Source: Pseudomonadota bacterium
GTDB lineage: Bacteria; Pseudomonadota; Gammaproteobacteria; Pseudomonadales; UBA5518
DNA: 9,972 bases
Reading direction: 5' to 3'
Assembly: GCA_022705125.1 (NCBI GenBank)
Contig: JAKJFB010000076.1
Coordinates: forward strand, 1 to 9,972
This document shows positions 1 through 9,972 of the stretch, piece by piece. Made by a program: the position numbers and the translations under genes. The notes below the pieces were generated by a model. It saw only the letters and a list, made by a program, of their open reading frames with translations. It was not told the DNA's origin and ran no database searches. How positions within the stretch are numbered: the stretch's first letter is position 1; the number at the start of each line of letters is the position of its first letter.

Positions 1-1
1 C

Positions 2-277
2 CTGCTCGGCGCGCTGACCGGCGTGATCGCGCTCGCGAGCGCGGGGAGCCGGCTTTTCCTCAGTTCCAGCACGGCCGATGGCGCGCCGGTGCAGCAGCCG
101 CCCGGTGCCGCGGGAGCGCCCACGCCACGCGAACTGCTCGCCGTGGGCGGCCTGCTCGGACTGATCGCCGCGCTCACGCTGGGCGCGGGGCCAGCGGTGG
201 AATTCGCGCAAGCCACCGCCGCGCAACTGCTCGCGCCGGCGGCCTACATCCACGCGGTGCTGGGAGTGACGCCATGA
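2..277 (+). CDS. mrpD: Mrp-type Na+/H+ antiporter subunit D, 3' end (partial)
   Basis: This is the last 91 codons of a membrane protein whose start lies outside the window. MrpD is one of the large, NuoL/M/N-related proton-translocating subunits of the multisubunit cation/proton antiporter in the inner membrane. The visible part begins in a hydrophobic stretch (LLGALTGVIALASAG) and contains a GSRLF segment like that near the C-terminus of MrpD/MnhD/PhaD proteins. A polar linker rich in Pro and Ala follows, then two more hydrophobic stretches ending in YIHAVLG. The call rests mainly on position: the stop codon overlaps the start of mrpE as ATGA, and mrpE, mrpF and mrpG follow in the canonical order. 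The key transmembrane Lys and Glu residues are upstream and cannot be checked. Confidence 0.85.
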   Translation: MLGALTGVIALASAGSRLFLSSSTADGAPVQQPPGAAGAPTPRELLAVGGLLGLIAALTLGAGPAVEFAQATAAQLLAPAAYIHAVLGVTP

Positions 278-771
278 ACGGGTTCGCGCGCTGGCTGCCG
301 CATCCGCTGCTCACCCCGGTGCTCATGGCAACGTGGCTGCTGCTGAACAACAGCCTCGCGCCGGGACACCTCGTGCTCGGGCTGCTGCTGGGGCTGGTGA
401 TCCCGCGCTTCACGCTCGCCTTCTGGCCCGAGCGGGTGCGCATCCGCCGCCCCCGCGCGCTGCTCGGCCTCGCGGGCGTGTTCCTGCAGGATGTGCTGCT
501 CGCCAATTTCGCCGTCGCGCGGCTGGTCCTTGCGGGCCCGCGCGCGCTACGCCCGGCCTTCGTCGTGGTGCCGCTCGCGCTGCGCGACGAGCTCGCGATC
601 AGCCTGCTCGCCAACATCATCTGCCTCACGCCGGGCACGGTATCGGCACGGCTCTCGGCGGACCGACGGGAGCTGCTGGTCCATGCACTGGATTGCGCCG
701 ACACCGTGGCGCTGGTCGCCACCATCAAGTCGCGCTTCGAGGCGCCGCTCAGGGAGATCTTCGAATGCTGA
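274..771 (+). CDS. mrpE: Mrp-type Na+/H+ antiporter subunit E
   Basis: MrpE is a small integral membrane subunit of the Mrp (Mnh/Pha) cation/proton antiporter and is needed for assembly and activity of the complex. The 165-residue length is normal for the family. Two hydrophobic segments lie at about residues 12-48, including NNSLAPGHLVLG, a typical MrpE N-terminal signature. A basic loop follows, then a hydrophobic segment at about 62-88. A cytoplasmic domain holds the family-typical stretch NIICLTPGTVSARLS at about 114-128 and LLVHALD at 134-140. The ATG at 274 overlaps the mrpD stop and has a GGGAG ribosome site 7 nt upstream, so the genes are translationally coupled. The 3' end overlaps mrpF by 7 nt. 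Confidence 0.93.
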   Translation: MNGFARWLPHPLLTPVLMATWLLLNNSLAPGHLVLGLLLGLVIPRFTLAFWPERVRIRRPRALLGLAGVFLQDVLLANFAVARLVLAGPRALRPAFVVVPLALRDELAISLLANIICLTPGTVSARLSADRRELLVHALDCADTVALVATIKSRFEAPLREIFEC

Positions 772-1034
772 ACGTCGCGCTGGCCATCGCCTTCGCGCTG
801 GTCGGGGCCGCCTTCGTGCTCAGCGTCGTGCGACTGCTGCGCGGGCCGCACGCGCCGGATCGCATCCTGGCGCTCGACACGCTCTACATCAACGCCATCG
901 CCCTGCTGGTGCTGTTCGGCATCCGGCTGGCGAGCCCGCTATATTTCGAGGCGGCCCTGCTCATCGCCCTGATGGGCTTCGTCGGCACCGTGGCGCTGGC
1001 GAAGTTCCTGCTGCGCGGAGACATCATCGAATGA
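765..1034 (+). CDS. mrpF: Mrp-type Na+/H+ antiporter subunit F
   Basis: This 89-residue, almost wholly hydrophobic protein has three predicted membrane segments at about residues 3-25, 36-55 and 59-82. The first loop holds RGPHAPDRILALDTL, a strongly conserved MrpF/PhaF signature. The family forms part of the small-subunit cluster of the Mrp antiporter. In some bacteria the paralogue has been linked to bile-salt or cholate efflux, but the operon context here indicates the antiporter role. The ATG at 765 overlaps the mrpE stop, and an AGGGAG ribosome site sits 8 nt upstream. The next gene starts within its stop codon (ATGA). Confidence 0.93.
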   Translation: MLNVALAIAFALVGAAFVLSVVRLLRGPHAPDRILALDTLYINAIALLVLFGIRLASPLYFEAALLIALMGFVGTVALAKFLLRGDIIE

Positions 1035-1396
1035 ACCCCGCGCTCGAAATCCTGCTGAGCGTCCTGGTGGTCGTGGGCGCGCTCTTCACCTTCATCGGCT
1101 CGCTGGGACTGGTCCGCCTGCAGGATTTCTACACGCGCCTGCACGGCCCGACCAAGGCGACGACGCTGGGGGTGGGTTGCCTGCTCGTCGCGTCGTCGGT
1201 CTATTTCAGCGTCGCCGGCGAGGGCCTCAGCCTGCACGAGTTGCTGGTGTCGCTGTTCCTGTTCATCACCGCGCCGATTTCCGCGCACCTGCTGGCCAGG
1301 GCCGCGCTGCACCTGGACCTGCCCGGTGCCGTGGCGCGTCCACCGCCCGACGCGAGCGCATCGCCCGAATCGGCGCGCGACACGCCACGGCACTGA
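1031..1396 (+). CDS. mrpG: Mrp-type Na+/H+ antiporter subunit G
   Basis: This is the last gene of the Mrp operon, 121 residues long. Three hydrophobic segments lie at about residues 6-27, 43-62 and 67-93. The signature GLVRLQDFYTRLHGPTKATTLG at about 26-47 is diagnostic for the MrpG/PhaG family. The C-terminal 25 residues are a Pro/Ala/Ser-rich, probably disordered tail, which commonly varies between species. It completes the complex with MrpD, E and F and presumably the A, B and C subunits upstream. The ATG overlaps the mrpF stop as ATGA, with a CGGAG ribosome site 10 nt upstream. No clear terminator hairpin with a T tract follows the stop. Confidence 0.93.
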   Translation: MNPALEILLSVLVVVGALFTFIGSLGLVRLQDFYTRLHGPTKATTLGVGCLLVASSVYFSVAGEGLSLHELLVSLFLFITAPISAHLLARAALHLDLPGAVARPPPDASASPESARDTPRH

Positions 1397-1427
1397 ACCG
1401 CCCGTCGCGCGGCCAGCCCCAGCGGCA

Positions 1428-1455
1428 TTGACGGCGCCCGGCGCATCGTCATACT
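1428..1455 (+). promoter_or_regulatory. possible sigma70-type promoter for the acyl-CoA ligase operon
   Basis: In the 153-nt gap between mrpG and the first ligase gene, TTGACG (1428-1433, 5 of 6 matches to consensus) is followed after 16 nt by CATACT (1450-1455, 4 of 6). Transcription would begin near 1462 and leave a leader of about 88 nt before the ATG at 1550. This is pattern matching only. A chance match is possible, although such boxes are fairly rare in DNA of this GC content. Confidence 0.35.
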
Positions 1456-1549
1456 GCCCGAGCCCGGAGCGCCGGTGCGCGAGCCATCAGCGGCGAAGCG
1501 CTATCGATCGATCGCGGCCGGGCGCAAAGCGATAACGAAACGGCAGACG

Positions 1550-3160
1550 ATGAACGACTACGCAAGCACCCGCCGCGACTACCGCTGGGATTGCCCGGCA
1601 CGTTTCAACTTCGCGCGCGACGTGATCGACCGCTGGGCGGCGGCCGATCCCGCGCAGCCCGCGATGCTGTGGGTCGACGATCACGGCCGCGAGGAAAGGC
1701 GCACTTTTGCCGATATTGCCACGGCCTCGTGCCGCGCCGCCAACGTGCTCGCCGCCGCGGGGGTGGTGCCAGGCGATCGCGTCGTGCTGCTGCTGGGCCG
1801 GCAGATCGCGTGGTGGGAAGTACTGACCGCCTGCCTGCGCATGGGCGCGGTCGCGAGCCCCGGCACGGCGCAGCTCTCGGCGAAGGATCTCGCCTTTCGC
1901 ATCAACGCGGCGCAGGCCACCTGCGTGGTGACCGACACCGGGAATGCCGCGAAAGTCGACGCGGTGCTCGGCGAATGCCCGAGCCTGAAGGCGCGCGTGC
2001 TGGTGGACGGATCCCGCGACGGCTGGATCGACTACGCCGCCGCGCTGCGCGCGGCATCCGAGGCGTTCGTCACCGTCGACAGCGCGGCCGAGGACGAGGC
2101 ACTGTGCTATTTCACCTCGGGCACGACCGGTCAGCCGAAGATGTGCATGCACGCGCATTCCTACGGGCTGGCGCACCAGACCACGGGGCGCTACTGGCTG
2201 GACCTGAAGCCCTCGGACCTGCACTGGAACCTGAGCGACACCGGCTGGGCCAAGGCGGCGTGGAGCAGCTATTTCGGGCCGTGGAACTGCGGCGCGGCAA
2301 TCTTCGTGCACCACACGCAGGGCTTCAGCCCCAGGCGCGCGCTCGAGCTGCTGGCGACGCAGCCGATCACCACGTTCTGCGGCGCCCCGACCATCTACCG
2401 CATGTTCGTGCAGGAGGACCTCGCGCGTTACCGCTTCCCCCGCCTGCGCCACTGCGTGGGCGCCGGCGAGCCGCTGAACCCCGAGGTGATCGAGACCTGG
2501 CGCAAGGCCACGGGACTGGTGATCCGCGACGGCTACGGCCAGACCGAGACCGTGCTCCTATGCGGCAACTACCCGTCGCTGGAGCCGCGCCTGGGCTCGA
2601 TGGGCAAGCCCGCGCCCGGCATCGGGCTGGCGGTGATCGACATGCAAGGCCGCGAACTGGCGCCGGGCGCCGAGGGCGACGTGGCGGTGCGCGTGAAGCC
2701 GCGGCGCCCGCCCGGGCTGTTTCTCGAGTACAAGGGCGATCCGCGCAAGACGGCCGCGAGTTACCGCGGCGACTGGTACCTCACCGGCGATCGCGCCACG
2801 GTGGACGCCGACGGTTACTTCTGGTTCGTCGGCCGCTCCGACGACGTGATCCTCTCGGCCGGCTACCGCATCGGTCCCTTCGAGGTCGAGAGCGCGCTGA
2901 TCGAGCACCCGGCCGTGGCCGAATCCGCGGTCGTCAGCAGCCCGGACGCGCAGCGCGGCGAAATCGTGAAGGCCTTCGTGGTGCTGGCGCCCGGCCACGA
3001 GGCCAGCGAGGCGCTGGCCACCGAACTGCAGGCGCACGTGAAGAGGGTCACCGCACCGTACAAGTACCCGCGCCGCATCGAGTTCGTCGAGGAGTTGCCG
3101 AAGACCGTGAGCGGCAAGATCCGGCGCGTGGAACTGCGCAACCGCGAATGGGGACGCTGA
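1550..3160 (+). CDS. ACSM-like acyl-CoA ligase (AMP-forming)
   Basis: This is an adenylate-forming enzyme that activates a carboxylic acid with ATP and joins it to CoA. The 536-residue protein has the full motif set: FTSGTTGQPK at 188-197 (ATP-binding loop), YGQTET at 329-334, YLTGD at 410-414, GRSDDVILSAGYRIGP at 428-443, and a C-terminal PKTVSGKIRR with the likely catalytic Lys523. The segment WNLSDTGWAKAAW at about 226-238 resembles medium-chain (ACSM) and branched-chain acyl-CoA synthetases rather than acetyl-CoA synthetase or long-chain FadD. Substrate is inferred as a short/medium or branched fatty acid, possibly aromatic. I chose the ATG at 1550 because the frame's upstream GTG at 1475 adds 25 basic residues of no recognisable homology. 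No strong ribosome site is visible at either. It lies 4 nt before the next ligase gene. Confidence 0.88.
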   Translation: MNDYASTRRDYRWDCPARFNFARDVIDRWAAADPAQPAMLWVDDHGREERRTFADIATASCRAANVLAAAGVVPGDRVVLLLGRQIAWWEVLTACLRMGAVASPGTAQLSAKDLAFRINAAQATCVVTDTGNAAKVDAVLGECPSLKARVLVDGSRDGWIDYAAALRAASEAFVTVDSAAEDEALCYFTSGTTGQPKMCMHAHSYGLAHQTTGRYWLDLKPSDLHWNLSDTGWAKAAWSSYFGPWNCGAAIFVHHTQGFSPRRALELLATQPITTFCGAPTIYRMFVQEDLARYRFPRLRHCVGAGEPLNPEVIETWRKATGLVIRDGYGQTETVLLCGNYPSLEPRLGSMGKPAPGIGLAVIDMQGRELAPGAEGDVAVRVKPRRPPGLFLEYKGDPRKTAASYRGDWYLTGDRATVDADGYFWFVGRSDDVILSAGYRIGPFEVESALIEHPAVAESAVVSSPDAQRGEIVKAFVVLAPGHEASEALATELQAHVKRVTAPYKYPRRIEFVEELPKTVSGKIRRVELRNREWGR

Positions 3161-3164
3161 GGCC

Positions 3165-4856
3165 GTGACGCTCGCGCTCAGCCATTGCAGCGGTCCCGAT
3201 GACCGCCCGCTGCTCGAGCAGACCATCGGCGAGGCCTTCGTCGCCACCGCCGGGCGCTTCCCCGACCGCCCGGCGCTGGTGGTGCCTCACCAGGGCATCC
3301 GCTGGAACTACACCGAATACCGGCGCGAGGTCGATCGCCTCGCGGCCGCACTGCTCGTGCTCGGCATCGAGCCCGGCGATCGCCTCGGCATCTGGGCGCC
3401 CAACTGCGTCGAGTGGTGCCTCACGCAGTACGCGAGCGCGCGCATCGGCGCGATCATGGTGTGCATCAACCCCGCCTACCGACTCCACGAGCTCGAGTAC
3501 GCGCTGAACAAGGTGCAGTGCAAGGCGCTGATCACGGCCGAGCGCTTCAGGAGCAGCGACTACCTCGGCATGCTGCAGACGCTGGCACCGGAACTCGCGC
3601 GCGCCACGCCGGGGCAGCTCGATGCACACCGGCTGCCGCACCTGAAGGCCGTGATCCGCATGGGCGAGGAGCACACGCCCGGCATGTTCAATTTCGATTC
3701 GATCCGCGCCGCGGTGGAAGCGCCCGACATCGCGCGCGTCGAAGCCGTCGCCGCGCAACTACGCCCTGCCGACCCGATCAACATCCAGTTCACCAGCGGC
3801 ACCACCGGCAACCCCAAGGGCGCGACGCTGACGCACCGCAACATCCTGAACAACGGCAGCATCGTCGGCGAGGGCATGCGCCTCACGGAGCACGACAGGC
3901 TGTGCGTGCCCGTGCCGCTCTACCACTGCTTCGGCATGGTGATGGGCAGCCTGGCGTGCGTCACGCACGGTGCCGCGGCGATCTTCCCGGCGGAGGCCTT
4001 CGATGCGCTCGCCACGCTGCAGGCCGTGGCCGCCGAGCGCTGCACCGCGCTGCACGGCGTGCCCACGATGTTCATCGCGCAGCTCGATCACCCGCGCTTC
4101 GCGCAGTTCGACCTGTCGACGCTTCGCACCGGCATCATGGCCGGCGCCCCCTGCCCGGTCGAGGTGATGAACCGCGTGCTGACGCAGATGCACCTCCCGG
4201 AGATCCTGATCGCCTACGGCCAGACCGAGACCAGCCCCGTGAACCACATGACGCGCGCCGACGACCCGATCGGCAAGCGCGTGGGCTCGGTGGGCCGCGC
4301 GGCCGCGCATTGCGAGATCAGGATCGTCGATGCCGAGGGACGCACGCTGCCCGTGGGCGAGAGGGGCGAGATCTGCTGTCGCGGCTACGCCGTGATGCAC
4401 GGCTACTGGGACGACGAGGAAAGGACGCGCGAGACCATCGACGCGCAGGGCTGGCTGCACTCGGGCGACATCGGCGTCATGGACGCCGAGGGCTACGTGC
4501 AGGTCACCGGCCGCATCAAGGACATGATCATCCGCGGCGGCGAGAACATCTATCCGCGCGAGGTCGAGGAATTCCTCTACACCCATCCCGACATCCAGGA
4601 CGTGCAGGTATTCGGCGTGCCCGACGCGAAATACGGCGAACAGGTCTGCGCGTGGATCCGCCTGCGCCCCGGCGCGGCGCTGGATGCCGATCGGGTCAGG
4701 GACTTCTGCAGGGAGCGGATCGCGCACTTCAAGGTGCCTCGGTTCATCCGCTTCGTCGACGACTTCCCCATGACCGTCACCGGCAAGGTGCAGAAATTCC
4801 GCATGCGCGAGCAGATGATCGCGGAGCTCGGCCCGGCTGATCCGCGGCCTTCCTAG
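3165..4856 (+). CDS. ACSF2/FadD-like fatty acyl-CoA ligase (AMP-forming)
   Basis: This second AMP-binding ligase (563 residues) is from a different subfamily than its neighbour. Motifs in order: FTSGTTGNPKG at 209-219, YGQTET at 351-356, HSGD at 432-435, GRIKDMIIRGGENIYP at 449-464, and PMTVTGKVQK with catalytic-type Lys541. The RGGENIYP form of the hinge motif and the overall length fit the ACSF2/medium-to-long-chain acyl-CoA synthetase group. The expected product is a fatty acyl-CoA for beta-oxidation or lipid synthesis; chain length cannot be read from sequence. The GTG start is 4 nt after the previous stop, with GGGGA about 10 nt upstream, indicating one transcript with the ACSM-like gene. 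No in-frame ATG lies near the N-terminus. Its TAG stop shares CTAG with the stop of the convergent small gene. Confidence 0.88.
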   Translation: MTLALSHCSGPDDRPLLEQTIGEAFVATAGRFPDRPALVVPHQGIRWNYTEYRREVDRLAAALLVLGIEPGDRLGIWAPNCVEWCLTQYASARIGAIMVCINPAYRLHELEYALNKVQCKALITAERFRSSDYLGMLQTLAPELARATPGQLDAHRLPHLKAVIRMGEEHTPGMFNFDSIRAAVEAPDIARVEAVAAQLRPADPINIQFTSGTTGNPKGATLTHRNILNNGSIVGEGMRLTEHDRLCVPVPLYHCFGMVMGSLACVTHGAAAIFPAEAFDALATLQAVAAERCTALHGVPTMFIAQLDHPRFAQFDLSTLRTGIMAGAPCPVEVMNRVLTQMHLPEILIAYGQTETSPVNHMTRADDPIGKRVGSVGRAAAHCEIRIVDAEGRTLPVGERGEICCRGYAVMHGYWDDEERTRETIDAQGWLHSGDIGVMDAEGYVQVTGRIKDMIIRGGENIYPREVEEFLYTHPDIQDVQVFGVPDAKYGEQVCAWIRLRPGAALDADRVRDFCRERIAHFKVPRFIRFVDDFPMTVTGKVQKFRMREQMIAELGPADPRPS

Positions 4857-5263
4857 CCCAGGGCCCCGAGCTCGTGCTGGCGCAGGGTATCGAGGTACTC
4901 CCAGACTTCCGCGATGCGCCCGTCGGCCATGCGGAAACGGAAGAAATAGCGGTTCTCGTAGGCGGCACCGTTCGCGAGCAACGCGTTCAGCGTGAACTGC
5001 GCCGCCACGTCGTGGCGGTCGGCGATCACGGCTTCGAGGTGCACATCTAGGCTCCCCGGCGCGTAGACGCCCACGCCCGAGCTCAGCACCTGCATCACGC
5101 CGTCGATGCCGCACGCGGGGTTGGGCTTGATCATCGGGTTGCTGGGCGGCACGTGCCAGCGCACATCCGGCGTGAAGCATTCCTCGAGCGGCGCGGCGAG
5201 CCTGCCGCCGATGATGTCGAAATAGCGCATAACGATGGCCTTGTTGGCCGCTGCGGCATCCAT
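4853..5263 (-). CDS. NTF2/SnoaL-like small protein
   Basis: This 136-residue soluble protein looks like an NTF2-fold member (SnoaL-like). An N-terminal helix (MDAAAANKAIVMRYFDIIGG) leads to an FTPDVRWHVP strand, and YENRYFFRFRMADGRIAEVWEYLD at about 102-125 is the characteristic terminal strand pair of this fold. The superfamily includes polyketide cyclases, ketosteroid isomerases, epoxide hydrolases and many non-enzymatic proteins, so no reaction is assigned. The ATG at 5263 is chosen because a perfect AGGAGG lies just upstream. A longer open frame from 5371 would run 77 nt into the acyltransferase gene and adds only Arg/Pro/Ala-rich sequence. It starts 31 nt after the acyltransferase stop, so the two are probably co-transcribed. 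The gene overlaps the convergent ligase gene by 4 nt. Confidence 0.8.
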   Translation of the reverse strand: MDAAAANKAIVMRYFDIIGGRLAAPLEECFTPDVRWHVPPSNPMIKPNPACGIDGVMQVLSSGVGVYAPGSLDVHLEAVIADRHDVAAQFTLNALLANGAAYENRYFFRFRMADGRIAEVWEYLDTLRQHELGALG

Positions 5264-5267
5264 GATC

Positions 5268-5273
5268 CCTCCT
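5268..5273 (-). promoter_or_regulatory. ribosome binding site fixing the NTF2-like start
   Basis: On the - strand AGGAGG stands 4 nt before the ATG at 5263 (AGGAGGGATCATG). It is the strongest Shine-Dalgarno sequence noted in the window and decides the start in favour of the 136-residue product. Confidence 0.75.
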
Positions 5274-5294
5274 GCTTCCCGTGCCTCGGGACAC

Positions 5295-6854
5295 TCAGTC
5301 GCGCCGGCGCGCGGCACGGCGCACGGCCGGCTTTCGCCCGGCCCGCGCGGTCGCGGCGCGCGCCGGTTCACGCGCTCGTCCAGCCGCCTTGCGTGCGCCT
5401 GCCGGCGCGCTCTTCCTCGTCGCGCTTCGGCCCGGCCGTACTGCCTTCGCCGCCTCGCGCAGTTCCTCGAACGAGGCCACGATGCACTCGGCGTAGAACG
5501 CCGGGTCCGGCATCATCTCGCGGCACGAGTTGATGGCGATGGACACCTTGCCGTCGTAGCTCATGACGGCATGGAAGAGCCCCATGGAATCCATCACCGG
5601 ACCGAATCCGGCCATGGTGACCAGGCGCGCGCCGGCCAGGTACAAGGGCGTCTGCGGCCCGGGCACGCTGGTGATCACGGTGTTCACCGGCACCGCGATA
5701 CCGGTGGCGAGCAGCAGGCGCGTGCCGAACTCCAGGAAACCCAGCGAGGCGAGCTGCGAGGGCACGGCCTCGATGAGGTCCAGCGCGTTGTGCGGGCCCA
5801 GTGCCTCGGCAATCCTGCGGGCGCCGGCGGCATCGCGCTGCACCGCCGCCAGGCGCTGCAGCGGATCCTCGATCGTGGTGTGGAGGGGGATCGCCATCGC
5901 GCTCACCCGGTTGCCACCGAGTTCGCGCGCCTCGGCTTCGCGCACGCTGAGCGGCGCGATCGTCACCGGCGACACGTCGCCGAGTTCCCCGCGCGACTGC
6001 AGGTACCTGCGCAACGCGCCGCCGATCACCGTGACCACCACGTCGTTCAGGGTGCTCTGGGGCACCGCGGCGCGCACCACCTTCAACTCGGCCAGGGAGA
6101 AGAAGGTACTCTCGACCACGCGGTACGATGAAATCCGCCCGTTGAAACGCGTGTTGACCGCGGCCTGGGAGCGCGCGCCGTGCTGCTCGCGCACCGCGGC
6201 GACCATGCGCCCGAGCGCCGGCACCAGGTTGCCGGCCAGGCGCCCCCAGCGCAGCGGCGCCCCCAGCGCGTGCAGTCCGGCGCGCGCGAGCATCTCGCGC
6301 ACCGGCAATTCGCCGTCATCGGCCTGCGCTTCGCCCGCAGCCTCGTGCGCGGCGTGCGGCGCCTTGTCGTGCAGCCTCTCGAGGGCTTGCAGCGCCGCCA
6401 GGCCGTCGATGGCCGCGTAGTGCACCTTCAGCAGGATCGCGAAACTGCCGCGCGGCAGGAACTCGATATTGTCCAGCCCCTCGATCACGGTCGCCTCCCA
6501 CAACGGCCGCGAGCGGTCGACGGGGCGCGCGTGGATCCGCGCCGCCATGATGCAGAGCTGGCGCCAGTCACCCGGCTTGGGCAGCGCCACGTGGTTCACG
6601 TGCGACTCGATGTTGAAGTGCCCGTCGTGCACCCAGTACGGATTGTCCAGACCGAACGGCACCTCCTGCACGCGGCAGTGCAGGAACGGTACCTCGCGGG
6701 CACGCTCGGCGAAGACGTTCATGATGTCGCGCAGGCGCACGCGCCCGCCGGGCGCCGTCTGCTGGGAATAAAACAGCAACGCGCTCAGGTGCGCCGCGCA
6801 GCGCGGGCTTTCCTGGGTGAGATACAGCCGATCCAGGGCGCTCAACTGGTGCAT
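5295..6854 (-). CDS. WS/DGAT-family O-acyltransferase with HY for HH in the active site
   Basis: The family transfers acyl groups from acyl-CoA to fatty alcohols or diacylglycerol, making wax esters and triacylglycerol at the membrane or lipid-droplet surface. The 519-residue protein shows the family layout: LSALDRLYLTQES near the N-terminus, DRSRPLWE at 113-120, STLNDVVVTVIGGALRRYL at about 267-285, GNRVSAM at 314-320, SVPGPQTPLYLAG at about 396-408 and SYDGKVSIAIN at 432-442. The catalytic HHxxxDG motif reads VHYAAIDG (144-151): His145, Asp150 and Gly151 are kept, but the second, usually catalytic His is Tyr146. Residues 468-519 form an Ala- and Arg/Lys-rich tail (18 basic, 18 Ala of 52). 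The ATG at 6854 has an AAGGAG site 6 nt upstream. An FNR/Anr-like box lies 69-82 nt upstream. Family assignment is firm; activity is uncertain. Confidence 0.88.
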   Translation of the reverse strand: MHQLSALDRLYLTQESPRCAAHLSALLFYSQQTAPGGRVRLRDIMNVFAERAREVPFLHCRVQEVPFGLDNPYWVHDGHFNIESHVNHVALPKPGDWRQLCIMAARIHARPVDRSRPLWEATVIEGLDNIEFLPRGSFAILLKVHYAAIDGLAALQALERLHDKAPHAAHEAAGEAQADDGELPVREMLARAGLHALGAPLRWGRLAGNLVPALGRMVAAVREQHGARSQAAVNTRFNGRISSYRVVESTFFSLAELKVVRAAVPQSTLNDVVVTVIGGALRRYLQSRGELGDVSPVTIAPLSVREAEARELGGNRVSAMAIPLHTTIEDPLQRLAAVQRDAAGARRIAEALGPHNALDLIEAVPSQLASLGFLEFGTRLLLATGIAVPVNTVITSVPGPQTPLYLAGARLVTMAGFGPVMDSMGLFHAVMSYDGKVSIAINSCREMMPDPAFYAECIVASFEELREAAKAVRPGRSATRKSAPAGARKAAGRAREPARAATARAGRKPAVRRAARRRD

Positions 6855-6894
6855 TCGCTTCTCCTTCTGTTGGCGGCGCCGACGACGCCGCGCA

Positions 6895-6900
6895 ATTCTC
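6895..6900 (-). promoter_or_regulatory. possible -10 element of the acyltransferase promoter
   Basis: On the - strand the hexamer GAGAAT (4 of 6 matches to TATAAT) lies 22 nt downstream of the FNR/Anr-like box. If the box centre is -41.5, this hexamer falls exactly at -12 to -7, as in class II FNR-activated promoters. The predicted start is near 6888, giving a 34-nt leader that contains the AAGGAG ribosome site. Confidence 0.4.
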
Positions 6901-6922
6901 CGCCCGCAGGGCCGGCGCGCGA

Positions 6923-6936
6923 TTGATCGAGGTCAA
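6923..6936 (-). promoter_or_regulatory. FNR/Anr-like binding site upstream of the acyltransferase
   Basis: On the - strand the sequence is TTGACCTCGATCAA, which differs from the FNR/Anr/CRP-family consensus TTGAT-N4-ATCAA at one base. It lies in the 97-nt gap between the AMMECR1 stop and the acyltransferase start, 69-82 nt before the ATG. The site implies oxygen- or nitric-oxide-responsive activation of the acyltransferase and NTF2-like pair. This is a sequence match only; no regulator gene is in the window. Confidence 0.5.
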
Positions 6937-6951
6937 CCGCGCGGCACGGAT

Positions 6952-7530
6952 TCACGGTATCGATTCGGTGGTGTAGCGCTCGACGCGGACAGCGTCCGAC
7001 CAGTGAGCGCAATCCAGGCCGGCCTTCTGCTTCAGGCGCGCCAGGAATTCGCGCGGCTCGGGCAACTGCTCCCACACCGAGGGCAGGAAGGTGCCGCGCG
7101 CGTGGCGCTCGCTGAGGATCAGCCCGTCGATGCCGGGACGCAGCTGGCCGAGCAGCTCTTCCTCGGAGTCGAACACGAGCAGCTCCGGCGGGCTCAGCAC
7201 CGAGATATGCAGTTCGATGCGCTCGAACTCCTCGCGAGCGAGCGCGGGGAAGCGCGGATCGCCAAAGGCCGCGGCATGCGCCATCTCGGCCACCTCGAGA
7301 ACCAGCGCGCGCCGTGCCTCCAGCGTACCCATGCACCCGCGCAGGCGCCCGGCCAGGTTCAGCGTGACAAAGCTCGCTCGTGGTTGGGCGAGCGCAGGCG
7401 CGAACGCCTCGACCTCCACCCGCAGGCGCTCGCCATCGAGCCCCGCGCGGATCGCCTGGCCCGCCAGCGCCAGCAGCGTGGCGCGCTCGGCCGGGCCGAA
7501 GGCGCACTCAGCCGACGAGCCAGGCGCCAT
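6952..7530 (-). CDS. AMMECR1-domain protein (AmmeMemoRadiSam system protein A)
   Basis: This 192-residue protein is a compact AMMECR1 domain. The invariant signature LRGCMG (63-68; usually LRGCIG) holds the conserved Cys66. Other family-typical stretches are DPRFPAL at 91-97, ELHISVLSPPE at about 106-116, GLILSERHARGTFLPSVWEQL at about 136-156, and EFLARLKQKAGL at 161-172. The human homologue is linked to a syndromic disorder, but no enzymatic activity is established for the bacterial family. It follows MEMO on the same strand, with the chosen ATG at 7530 overlapping the MEMO end by 23 nt, which suggests translational coupling. An upstream in-frame ATG at 7566 would add 12 residues and lengthen the overlap. 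It belongs with MEMO and the radical SAM enzyme nearby. Confidence 0.9.
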   Translation of the reverse strand: MAPGSSAECAFGPAERATLLALAGQAIRAGLDGERLRVEVEAFAPALAQPRASFVTLNLAGRLRGCMGTLEARRALVLEVAEMAHAAAFGDPRFPALAREEFERIELHISVLSPPELLVFDSEEELLGQLRPGIDGLILSERHARGTFLPSVWEQLPEPREFLARLKQKAGLDCAHWSDAVRVERYTTESIP

Positions 7531-8293
7531 AGCCCACCACGCGCTCGCGATCGCCCGCCGTATCACCGGAATTGCGCAGGTCCACCGTGGTCACGCGCAG
7601 GCCGCGGCGGCGCGCCAGGCACAGCAGCCCGCCCAGCGGCACGCGCCCGCAGGCCGAGTCGCGCCCCAGGTCCTCGAAGCGCAGCGCCTCGATAGCCGCG
7701 CAGGTCGTGCGGTCCAGGCGCTGCGCGGTCTCGTAATCGTAATAGTGACTGAGGTCCGTGCTGACGACGACCAGCGTGCCCGGGCCGTCCCAGACGCGCT
7801 CGAGCACCTCGGCAACCTCTTCGGCCGATGCCTCGCCGACCACCAGGGGAACCAGGGAGAAATCACCCAGCACTTCCTGCAGGAACGGCAGGTGCACCTC
7901 CAGGCTGTGCTCGTGGGCGTGGGCCGCATCGAGGCAGACCACCTGCGCCAGCGCCGACAGCGCCGCGATCGCCGCGTGATCGAGCTCGATGCGTCCGAAC
8001 GGGGTCTCGTAGCTCTCGCAGCTCGGCACCGAAAGACCGTGAAACGCAACCCGGTGCGAGGGACCGAGCAGCACGACGCGCTTCACGCGACCGCGCGCCG
8101 GCGCAAGCCGGGCATAGGCCGCGGCGGCCACGGGCGCCGAATACACATAGCCCGCATGGGGCACGATGATGGCCTTCGGGATCTCGCCACCCTGCGGCAC
8201 GACGCTCAGGAACGCCCGCACCTCTTCATGCAGGCTCTCGGGATCCGCCGGATAAAACACCCCCGCCACCGCTGGTTTGCGCACCGCCCTCAT
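7508..8293 (-). CDS. MEMO-family protein (AmmeMemoRadiSam system protein B)
   Basis: This 261-residue protein matches the MEMO family, which has the fold of LigB-type extradiol dioxygenases. The start RKPAVAGVFYPADP (5-18) is typical. Candidate metal ligands are in place: His46 in PHAGYVYS, His80 in LLGPSHR, and His183 in STDLSHYYDYETA. Cys215 in ACGRVPL corresponds to the conserved active-site-like Cys of the family. HAHEHSLEVHLPFLQ (125-139) is another hallmark. Metal binding (iron or copper) has been reported for human MEMO1; the bacterial reaction is unknown. The ATG at 8293 is chosen because GGAGGG lies 6 nt upstream and family homology begins within a few residues. An in-frame ATG at 8353 would run into the divergent control region. 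Confidence 0.92.
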   Translation of the reverse strand: MRAVRKPAVAGVFYPADPESLHEEVRAFLSVVPQGGEIPKAIIVPHAGYVYSAPVAAAAYARLAPARGRVKRVVLLGPSHRVAFHGLSVPSCESYETPFGRIELDHAAIAALSALAQVVCLDAAHAHEHSLEVHLPFLQEVLGDFSLVPLVVGEASAEEVAEVLERVWDGPGTLVVVSTDLSHYYDYETAQRLDRTTCAAIEALRFEDLGRDSACGRVPLGGLLCLARRRGLRVTTVDLRNSGDTAGDRERVVGYGAWLVG

Positions 8294-8299
8294 GGCATG

Positions 8300-8305
8300 C
8301 CCTCC
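8300..8305 (-). promoter_or_regulatory. ribosome binding site fixing the MEMO start
   Basis: On the - strand GGAGGG stands 6 nt before the ATG at 8293. It supports the 261-residue form of MEMO over longer versions of the frame. Confidence 0.65.
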
Positions 8306-8320
8306 ATGGTCGAGGGTTCC

Positions 8321-8346
8321 AAAATGCGCCCCTTGCCGTGCATTTT
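8321..8346. promoter_or_regulatory. inverted repeat in the divergent MEMO / radical SAM control region, possible operator
   Basis: AAAATGC (8321-8327) and GCATTTT (8340-8346) form perfect 7-bp inverted arms around a 12-nt GC-rich spacer. The A/T-rich arms stand out in very GC-rich DNA. The repeat lies in the 101-nt gap between the divergent MEMO and radical SAM starts. It coincides with a weak - strand promoter match: TTGAAA (8344-8349, 5 of 6), a 17-nt spacer and CATTTT (8321-8326, 3 of 6), which would start MEMO transcription near 8314. It could be an operator, a promoter, or both; no cognate regulator gene is visible. Confidence 0.35.
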
Positions 8347-8394
8347 CAAGCACCGCGTGCTGAACTCGCCCGCGATCCTGCGCTCCAATGGCGC

Positions 8395-9495
8395 ATGACC
8401 GGCAGCGAACGTTTCGAAGGCTCCTTTCCCACCCGGCACTGGCACACGCTCTCCGACGGGCGCGTGCAGTGCGATGTCTGCCCGCGCTTTTGCAAGTTGC
8501 ACCCGGGGCAGCGCGGATTGTGCTTCGTGCGCGGCAACCAGGACGACGCCATCGTGCTGACCACCTGGGGACGCTCCAGCGGGTTCTGCGTCGACCCCGT
8601 CGAGAAGAAGCCGCTGAACCATTTCCTGCCCGGCACGCCGATCCTGTCCTTCGGCACCGCCGGCTGCAACCTGGCCTGCAAGTTCTGCCAGAACTGGGAC
8701 ATCAGCAAGTCGCGCGAATGGGACACGCTGGCCGATGCCGCGACGCCCGAAACGATCGCGCGCGCGGCGCGGGAACTGGGCTGCCGCAGCGTGGCCTACA
8801 CCTACAACGACCCCGCGATCTTCCCCGAGTATGCGATCGACGTCGCCGCGGCCTGCCGCGAGCTCGACATCAGGTCGGTGGCCGTGACCGCGGGCTACAT
8901 GACGCCGGCGCCGCGCGCGGAGCTGTTCCGCCACATGGACGCCGCCAACGTCGACCTGAAATGCTTCACCGAGGATTTCTACCACAAGCTGTGCGGCGCG
9001 CATCTCGCCTCCATCCTGGAGACGCTGCTCTACCTCAGGCACGAGACGACGGTGTGGCTGGAGCTCACCACGCTGCTGATCCCGGGCCTGAACGACTCCG
9101 ATCGCGAGATCGAGGAGATGACGCAGTGGGTGGTGGAAAACCTCGGCCCGGACGTACCGTGGCACTTCACGGCCTTTCACCCCGATTGGAAGATGCGCGA
9201 CATCCCGCCCACCCCGCTCGGCACGCTGCTACGCGCGCATGCGATCGCGCGCAGGAACGGCGTGCGCTACGCCTACACGGGAAACGTGCACGACGAAGCG
9301 CACGGCGCCACCCACTGCCACACCTGCGACACGCGCCTGATCGGGCGTGACGGGTACCGCATCACCGACTGGAACCTCGGACCCGGCGGCACGTGCCGCA
9401 GCTGCGGCAGCGCGTGCGCGGGCCTGTTCGACGCCGACCCGGGCACCTGGGGCGCCAGGCGTCAGCCGGTGCGACTGCTCGACTACCACGTCTGA
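8395..9495 (+). CDS. AmmeMemoRadiSam system radical SAM enzyme
   Basis: This radical SAM enzyme of the PflA-like (COG1180) group has 366 residues. The [4Fe-4S] motif is CNLACKFC (Cys91, Cys95, Cys98), preceded by SFGTAG. The N-terminal region has a Cys cluster, QCDVCPRFCKLHPGQRGLC (Cys26, 29, 33, 43), typical of AmmeMemoRadiSam enzymes. TYNDPAIFPEYA (about 136-147), DLKCFTEDFY (187-196) and TTLLIPGLND (225-234) fit the group. The C-terminus has a zinc-ribbon-like set (Cys308, 311, 334, 337, 341). The substrate is unknown. The ATG at 8395 is chosen because homology begins shortly after it; a GTG at 8338 would add 19 residues and cross the inverted repeat. Neither start has a clear ribosome site. 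It is transcribed divergently from MEMO and AMMECR1. Confidence 0.92.
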   Translation: MTGSERFEGSFPTRHWHTLSDGRVQCDVCPRFCKLHPGQRGLCFVRGNQDDAIVLTTWGRSSGFCVDPVEKKPLNHFLPGTPILSFGTAGCNLACKFCQNWDISKSREWDTLADAATPETIARAARELGCRSVAYTYNDPAIFPEYAIDVAAACRELDIRSVAVTAGYMTPAPRAELFRHMDAANVDLKCFTEDFYHKLCGAHLASILETLLYLRHETTVWLELTTLLIPGLNDSDREIEEMTQWVVENLGPDVPWHFTAFHPDWKMRDIPPTPLGTLLRAHAIARRNGVRYAYTGNVHDEAHGATHCHTCDTRLIGRDGYRITDWNLGPGGTCRSCGSACAGLFDADPGTWGARRQPVRLLDYHV

Positions 9496-9522
9496 GGCCG
9501 GTCTGGCGTGGGTTCTGTGTGG

Positions 9523-9564
9523 GTTGAGCTTCAGCCCGACAAGGGTTCGGCGTGGGTCGGGCTG
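9523..9564. repeat. REP-like inverted pair downstream of the radical SAM gene
   Basis: CAGCCCGAC (9532-9540) and GTCGGGCTG (9556-9564) are perfect 9-bp inverted copies separated by 15 nt. The first lies inside a smaller imperfect hairpin, GTTGAGCTTCAGCCCGAC (9523-9540). It resembles a decayed form of GTCGGGCTTCAGCCCGAC, a common proteobacterial intergenic palindrome. GGCGTGGGT also occurs twice (9505-9513 and 9549-9557). There is no T tract after the stem, so a standard intrinsic terminator is unlikely, though the stem could protect the 3' end of the transcript. Confidence 0.5.
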
Positions 9565-9644
9565 CAGAGGGTGTCGCAAAACCATCTGTGCCCTGGATAG
9601 CGATAGCGGCCCGACAATATCCCGCGTATCGCGAGCCATCGGCG

Positions 9645-9825
9645 CTCGAGCACCCATCGGTGCCGCGGACACGCCGTGAATCCCCCTCCGGGGCCCGGCC
9701 CGAAATCGCAGATTTCGGGCGTTCGGCGGGGCGAAGCAGTGCTTCGCCGGAATCCGCCTCACCCCTGCAGGCTACCTGTCGCCGTCCTGGCGACAGAGTG
9801 TCCGCCGCACCGATGGGTGCTCGAG
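9645..9825. repeat. large inverted-repeat element with nested hairpins
   Basis: Arms at 9645-9672 and 9798-9825 are inverted copies matching at 27 of 28 positions. Extended outward to 9641 and 9829, they match at 30 of 32. Between them are three perfect hairpins: a 10-bp stem GCCCGAAATC/GATTTCGGGC with a GCA loop (9698-9720), an 8-bp stem GGCGAAGC/GCTTCGCC with an AGT loop (9730-9748), and an 8-bp stem CTGTCGCC/GGCGACAG with a GTCCT loop (9776-9796). I see no open reading frame and no obvious target-site duplication. It could be a MITE-like element, a compound REP-type repeat or a structured RNA. Confidence 0.7.
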
Positions 9826-9935
9826 CCCCTCGCCGTGGTGGAAACCCTCGAAAAGGCGGACATTCCCGGATTCGCGCGACGCGGCACGCGCTCAGCCGAG
9901 CGGCTGTGCTGCCCGCTGTTGGCTTGCGGGGCCTT

Positions 9936-9954
9936 GCGCCGCAGGACGCGGCGC
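9936..9954. repeat. short GC hairpin near the window edge
   Basis: GCGCCGC (9936-9942) and GCGGCGC (9948-9954) form a perfect 7-bp stem with an AGGAC loop. It is followed by GGAGCTACAGGGACGTAC up to the edge. The form resembles repetitive intergenic hairpins of high-GC Proteobacteria; no T tract follows within the window. Confidence 0.4.
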
Positions 9955-9972
9955 GGAGCTACAGGGACGTAC

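Follow-up and report, generated by a model that had tools for sequence, protein, structure and literature searches.

The subject of this analysis is an AmmeMemoRadiSam system, a set of three genes (amrA, amrB and amrS) encoding an AMMECR1-family protein, a MEMO-family protein and a radical S-adenosylmethionine (SAM) protein. It lies in a 9,972-nucleotide (nt) stretch of DNA from a Pseudomonadota bacterium (Gammaproteobacteria; Pseudomonadales; UBA5518; assembly GCA_022705125.1, contig JAKJFB010000076.1, positions 1 to 9,972 of the forward strand), and this whole stretch is referred to below as the window. The three genes are co-located at 6952-9495 (Table 1) and together make up a complete AmmeMemoRadiSam set of the ordinary kind. 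AmrA scores 189.7 bits against NCBIfam model TIGR04335 (cut-off 99), AmrB 268.4 bits against TIGR04336 (cut-off 26) and AmrS 629.9 bits against TIGR04337 (cut-off 220), with further matches to the Pfam families AMMECR1 (PF01871), Memo (PF01875) and Radical_SAM (PF04055). The closest relative found, in a Pseudomonadales metagenome-assembled genome (MAG; locus L001), has the same layout, with 90% identity between the AmrS proteins. The laboratory methanotroph Methylomonas sp. LW13 (L050) likewise carries its trio in this order.

Table 1. Features of the AmmeMemoRadiSam locus in window coordinates (aa, amino acids)
Feature	Positions	Strand	Description	Evidence
amrA	6952..7530	-	AMMECR1-family protein, 192 aa; LRGC Cys66	TIGR04335, PF01871; predicted start ATG 7530
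amrB	7508..8293	-	MEMO-family protein, 261 aa; putative metal triad His46/His80/Cys215	TIGR04336, PF01875, MEMO1 structure matches
Overlap, amrB end/amrA start	7508..7530	-	23 nt	Sequence
Intergenic region amrB/amrS	8294..8394	no strand	Divergent, 101 nt	Sequence
amrS	8395..9495	+	PflA-like radical SAM protein, 366 aa; Cys26/29/33/43, Cys91/95/98, Cys308/311/334/337	

The starts at 7530 (amrA), 8293 (amrB) and 8395 (amrS) are all predicted ATG codons, with upstream GTG options at 7566, 8353 and 8338, respectively, and a scan of 8200-8500 turned up no promoter pattern of the sigma-70 type. AmrS carries the CxxxCxxC cluster motif (Cys91/95/98) and a radical SAM fold in structure prediction, the predicted fold being closest to that of the pyruvate formate-lyase (PFL) activating enzyme with bound peptide. 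Alignment A2, which was made without L029, L033, L040, L045 and L071 and in which L007 is one codon shorter, divides the protein into a PFL-activase-like core and extra N- and C-terminal four-cysteine regions.

In human MEMO1 the metal is bound by H49, H81 and C244, and H192 is close to it but is not a ligand (PMC11081632). AmrB residues His46, His80 and Cys215 align with these three ligands, and the His-His-Cys (H-H-C) triad is present in all 143 MEMO rows that are complete at the three columns, out of 169 rows in which some loci appear twice. Because the ligands align to these residues, AmrB His183 is probably not a metal ligand. An earlier reading of this DNA from its letters alone (the sequence-only reading) had called the three-gene system complete, had named Cys66 in AmrA, His46, His80, His183 and Cys215 in AmrB and Cys91, 95 and 98 in AmrS as key residues, and had described an overlap of 23 nt between the MEMO and AMMECR1 genes. 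The scores over curated NCBIfam cut-offs confirm the first of these claims, the residues are all present as quoted, and the overlap is borne out by the sequence.

Gene layout and co-occurrence across genomes

The AMMECR1 (A), MEMO (B) and radical SAM (S) families were surveyed by profile searches in 185 genomes of the class to which the genome of L001 belongs, with S found in 92, B in 94 and A in 93. The trio is complete in 90 genomes and wholly absent from 90, the remainder having A and B (three genomes), B and S (one) or S alone (one); Fisher tests for the three family pairs, which ignore kinship, give p values of 2e-46 to 3e-53. For the radical SAM family a score limit was applied because E-value alone is unspecific: by E-value the profile matches 8 of 14 control genomes, including E. 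coli, and it exceeds the cut-off in 4. Matches of at least 280 bits were counted, together with G117 (271 bits), while G057 and G089 (225 and 244 bits) and a 51-bit fragment in G029 were left out, and hence 92 genomes are counted for S against 94 over the cut-off.

The arrangement of the genes is as regular as their co-occurrence. B and S share a contig in 76 genomes, where they are divergent and at most 1.5 kb apart in 71, co-directional and near in 2 and far apart in 3; in 15 further genomes of the class they lie on different contigs. In 86 of the 93 genomes with both A and B, A comes next after B on one strand at a distance of no more than 400 nt; the two are on separate contigs in 5 and more widely spaced in 2. 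The gene-order comparison suggested by the sequence-only reading thus finds the trio non-randomly together, with B and A adjacent and S divergent, and the claim that the three families co-occur is upheld by the 185-genome statistics. The split, divergent arrangement that the same reading singled out is indeed present, but it is the norm of the clade and not special; an unusual gene order was accordingly rejected as a feature of this locus. The further proposal that the radical SAM enzyme is dosed separately is unsupported, as divergence is the clade norm.

Among the 80 best radical SAM relatives kept (L081, a duplicate of L001, is not counted), 46 loci read A- B- S+, 8 read B- S+, one reads S+ B- and one S+ B+, the signs denoting strands, and 24 show S alone within the stretch examined for each locus, which in some cases is short. 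A genome-wide search of 26 genomes (those of the 24 S-alone loci and of L014 and L079) recovered B in 21 and A in 22 (A exceeding its cut-off in 20), and therefore the partners in most of these genomes lie elsewhere or beyond the stretch examined. Clustering of open reading frames (ORFs) around the window-like systems revealed no cluster other than A, B or S in more than 10 of the 80 loci, small clusters being left unannotated; of the ORFs in the two large clusters, which span 80 and 76 loci, all 175 in one and 182 of 185 in the other coincide at least partly with A, B or S.

The association of MEMO with AMMECR1 is particularly close. The MEMO frame runs through AMMECR1 in 9 of the 47 window-like loci, window included, that have both genes on the same strand. 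An AMMECR1 start codon falls 1-40 nt before the MEMO end in 31 of the other 38 loci and not in 7, and an ATG stands at exactly -23 in 13 of the 38, window included (12 of 46 relatives). The count of fused frames is 8 of 53 by regular expression and 9 of 47 by walking the frame, which adds L072. Natural MEMO-AMMECR1 fusions occur in at least 7 of the 185 class genomes (L082-L088) and at five loci elsewhere (L089-L093), with MEMO first in all 12; these were chosen by eye from equal open-frame lengths, and their number is a minimum. In a search with one fusion that scored 7999 proteins, both Pfam domains were present in 120 of 120 among the matches listed. The AlphaFold2 model of fusion P0003 has a mean predicted local distance difference test score (pLDDT) of 96.0 and a predicted template modelling score (pTM) of 0.88, and its halves match MEMO1 and AMMECR1-family structures in a fold search. 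Adjacency, overlap, natural fusions and the confident fusion model make it well supported that MEMO and AMMECR1 act as one unit, and they agree with the earlier suggestion that the two proteins are made together.

MEMO is followed at L094 by a tandem pair of AMMECR1-like genes, of which the first is far more divergent and scores below the cut-off. L100/L214 (G196:C156), L198-L201 and L203-L208 encode divergent MEMO-like proteins that are extended by a long stretch at the N-terminus, and several of the genomes that encode them have no AmrS match at the limit of the P0001 search described below.

A branch with predicted export signals

A related branch of the trio has the appearance of an exported system. 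At L091 an AmrS relative (P0001, encoded at 17-1327) has a twin-arginine motif followed by a hydrophobic stretch at its N-terminus, and its gene adjoins that of a MEMO-AMMECR1 fusion with a signal-like N-terminus. Export was predicted here by simple sequence rules from predicted start codons, and many of the source sequences are MAG contigs. Signals resembling those of twin-arginine translocation (Tat) were found in 109 of 120 P0001 homologs (P0123-P0242) among the matches listed, where 7917 passed the E-value limit, and in 104 of the 120 by a stricter test. In 50 shuffles of the N-terminal 70 residues the count of Tat-like sequences averaged 4.46 of 120 and never exceeded 11, and it was 0 among 120 cytosolic-type fusions. 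By scripted rules of this kind the window's own AmrS has no Tat-type signal and its AmrB no signal peptide.

A further sample of 30 loci (L109-L138) comprises the best matches to P0001 in 199 genomes that share a phylum with G200, the genome of L042; we take this phylum to be Acidobacteriota. By one common test 25 of these 30 are Tat-like, the failures being L109, L110, L129, L130 and L137, compared with 0 of 80 window-like AmrS proteins, window included. MEMO frames are signal-like in 7 of 9 cases in L109-L138 and in 0 of 53 window-like cases, again with the window included. In a set of wide loci (L139-L158) the best 12-residue hydropathy upstream of 13 MEMO frames is 1.69-3.91 and at least 2.0 in 11 of them, a value reached by 1 of 120 cytosolic-type fusions in a similar but not identical test, and some exported-type MEMO frames have, as judged by eye, a lipobox-like cysteine. 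Two exported-type AmrS proteins and two fusions that were scanned all remain over the AmmeMemoRadiSam cut-offs.

A CxxCH motif lies ahead of the radical SAM domain in 120 of 120 P0001 homologs among the matches listed and in 14 of the 30 loci L109-L138, the other 16 forming a second exported-type group without it. Tat passengers are exported folded, and heme is attached to unfolded apocytochromes, so the CxxCH of exported-type AmrS may be a plain metal site rather than heme c. A 65-protein tree recovers the window type (support 100/100) and the CxxCH type (100/99) as separate groups; members of the third type do not cluster cleanly together, and long branches of the outgroup come out close to them or among them.

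A membrane protein with a spermidine-synthase-like domain is encoded near AmrS in 16 of the 20 wide loci (L139, L141-L148, L150-L155 and L157; for example L142:10040-12214), and the other four loci end at most 1.6 kb downstream of the genes. Family PF01564 was found in all three copies scanned, and hydropathy of 13 copies suggests 5-7 membrane spans before the domain and 6-7 after it. The protein occurs in 56 of the 199 genomes, comprising 50 of 55 with exported-type AmrS and 6 of 144 others (p 2.7e-34, ignoring kinship), where exported-type status means a P0001 match of at least 322.8 bits, a limit set by hand after the membrane-protein results had been viewed, at no clear score gap and without reference to signals. 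G231, one of the six genomes counted against the association, has a partial AmrS match on the membrane-protein contig. When the membrane protein and AmrS share a contig, 34 of 35 pairs are at most 5 kb apart.

The copy at L142 reads ICNLPEP where spermidine synthase reads IIDLTDP in the alignment, and the Asp of the latter motif is presumably catalytic in spermidine synthase. Aminopropyl transfer by the membrane protein is doubtful on this evidence; it possibly binds a SAM-like ligand, and perhaps supplies or recycles a SAM-type ligand for exported AmrS. Other neighbours of exported-type AmrS in the wide loci include DUF362-like proteins (9 of 20 loci), some with a twin-arginine motif of their own, and a DUF6599-like gene (4 of 20); entries of these two kinds lie at L142:8047-8940, L150:10239-11348 and L142:7020-7937.

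Evenly balanced, in our judgement, is the proposition that a branch of the trio, seen in this phylum and among related metagenome proteins, is exported, with a Tat-type AmrS, a Sec- or lipoprotein-type MEMO-AMMECR1 fusion and a membrane partner, and that the trio, including that of the window, would act on a small molecule or protein and not on RNA. If export is real, it speaks against a cytosolic substrate, tRNA included, in that branch, and weakly against one for the window's system. Export would be surprising for the radical SAM enzyme class, and no discussion of an exported or periplasmic radical SAM enzyme was found in the open-licence literature searched.

Possible functions of the trio

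Family membership, co-occurrence, gene order, fusions and conserved residues together form the basis for interpreting the trio. We consider it probable that the window encodes an ordinary trio in which AmrA and AmrB form a stable metal-containing unit and AmrS belongs to the same pathway, most likely sharing a substrate with them. In such a scheme AmrA and AmrB would associate as a physical complex in this organism, AmrB contributing the H-H-C site with its putative bound metals and AmrA the conserved LRGC cysteine. AmrS would then perform radical chemistry on a substrate that is bound or finished by AmrA-AmrB.

Several observations weigh against this interpretation. Five of the 26 genomes searched genome-wide are without B and four without A, although some of the assemblies are perhaps incomplete, and G112 and G121 have A next to S and B on a separate contig. 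Among the 14 control genomes, Haloferax volcanii matches A and not B, and Thermus composti B and not A. A single class dominates the counts, the statistics ignore kinship, and the pTM of a fusion model is an indirect measure of AmrA-AmrB contact. In its available part, the human MEMO1 study mentions neither AMMECR1 nor radical SAM proteins (PMC11081632).

In an unlikely alternative, the substrate to be modified is a nucleotide base or an isoprenoid. Modifications of this kind were reportedly proposed from gene context by Burroughs et al. in 2019. A later paper mentions 'recently-described Memo-Ammecr1 systems' and a related radical SAM domain in them, citing the Burroughs study (PMC7159879), and AmrS gives a weak QueE-like profile match of 25.3 bits. 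Against this proposal, the ORF clustering around window-like loci revealed no common fourth gene, with a rarer link possible, and an exported branch would not suit a cytosolic RNA substrate.

We think it decidedly improbable that AmrA-AmrB, instead of acting as a catalyst, handles iron for, or repairs, the iron-sulfur clusters of AmrS and enzymes like it. The human MEMO1 protein binds iron through the equivalent H-H-C site, affects iron homeostasis and showed no dioxygenase activity with the substrates tried (PMC11081632), all of which would suit such a role. Likewise, a survey places AMMECR1 among 7 Pfams chosen as anaerobe markers, with the family in 3.38% of 4,227 aerobes versus 50.66% of 1,293 anaerobes (PMC13386939). 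An iron-handling role, however, leaves unexplained both the pairing with one radical SAM family and the LRGC cysteine of AmrA.

The resemblance of AmrS to an activase raises the idea, which we regard as very improbable, that it installs a glycyl radical on the C-terminal strand RVVGYGA of AmrB. This strand is close to the RVSGY-type glycyl-radical motif, VVGY is present in 66 of 76 MEMO frames compared, and human MEMO1 has SSVSYAA at that position (aligned via L090). The activase-like fold expected of such a pair, nearest to the PFL activating enzyme with its bound peptide, is present, but an invariant partner glycine is not: Ser, Thr or Asp stands in its place in MEMO proteins sharing a locus with a radical SAM gene (L149, L150, L151, L092 and L135), Ala does so in others, among them L165, whose genome has a radical SAM homolog, and the Arg of the motif varies too. 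Across the 169 rows, with some loci entered twice, this position is Gly in 124, a gap in 21, Ser in 11, Ala in 6, Thr in 6 and Asp in 1, and a glycyl radical on MEMO was rejected. It was one concrete version of the earlier suggestion that the radical SAM enzyme may modify one partner or a common substrate. Scans of the window's proteins against NCBIfam and Pfam revealed no glycyl-radical enzyme model. Equally remote is a role for AmrB as an O2-dependent extradiol dioxygenase: DOPA and aminophenol extradiol dioxygenases do appear in the fold search of the MEMO-AMMECR1 fusion, but LigB-type enzymes have two His and a Glu or Asp as iron ligands, and the role is unlikely because the third ligand is Cys in all 143 complete MEMO rows where dioxygenases have Glu (PMC11081632, in part) and because AMMECR1 is associated with anaerobes (PMC13386939, in part).

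The interpretation of the trio as a metal-containing AmrA-AmrB unit sharing a pathway with AmrS matters beyond bacteria. MEMO and AMMECR1 relatives extend to humans. What MEMO1 does at the molecular level is described as unknown in the human study (PMC11081632), and AMMECR1 is not known to have an assigned reaction. The bacterial set links both to a radical SAM enzyme, so a product or target of the trio would be a first chemical clue. The exported branch, if true, implies that the three proteins can function together beyond the cytoplasm and, if confirmed, would sharply narrow the choice of substrate. It also raises the question of how SAM and electrons would be supplied there, to which the membrane protein offers a testable answer.

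Remainder of the window and comparison with known systems

The rest of the window holds genes for cation/H+ antiporter subunits E, F and G (274-1396), followed by two acyl-CoA ligase-like genes, a SnoaL-like gene and a gene for an acyltransferase of the wax ester/triacylglycerol synthase family (1475-6854). Downstream of amrS, at 9641-9829, is an imperfect 37-nt inverted repeat that is 89% complementary, with arms 115 nt apart; its exact 20-base core is absent from the 218 loci compared. No RNA family scored over its gathering threshold in the window, a PHROGs search gave one weak radical SAM match, and plasmid searches matched 5 records by DNA and 16 by protein.

The window's trio belongs to a known, still unexplained system and is ordinary among its members; nothing was found that sets it apart. 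In the portions available, open-licence papers that name AmmeMemoRadiSam do so for annotation only, and no treatment of AMMECR1, MEMO1 and radical SAM proteins together was found in the open-licence literature. Compared with the defined system (amrA, amrB, amrS), the window has all three genes over the cut-offs, with the usual B-A pair and a divergent S. AmrA matches the archaeal AMMECR1-family proteins (PDB 1vaj, 1zq7 and 1wsc) in sequence, including the LRGC motif, and these structures were deposited as hypothetical proteins. AmrS differs from the pyruvate formate-lyase activating enzyme (PDB 3cb8) in its added N- and C-terminal four-cysteine regions. AmrB resembles human MEMO1 (PDB 7kq8, 7l5c and 3bcz) in sequence, fold and H-H-C metal site; the bacterial protein has AMMECR1 and a radical SAM gene as partners, and it reads RVVGYGA where the human strand reads SSVSYAA. 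With the LigB-type extradiol dioxygenases MEMO shares its fold, with Cys instead of Glu as the third ligand.

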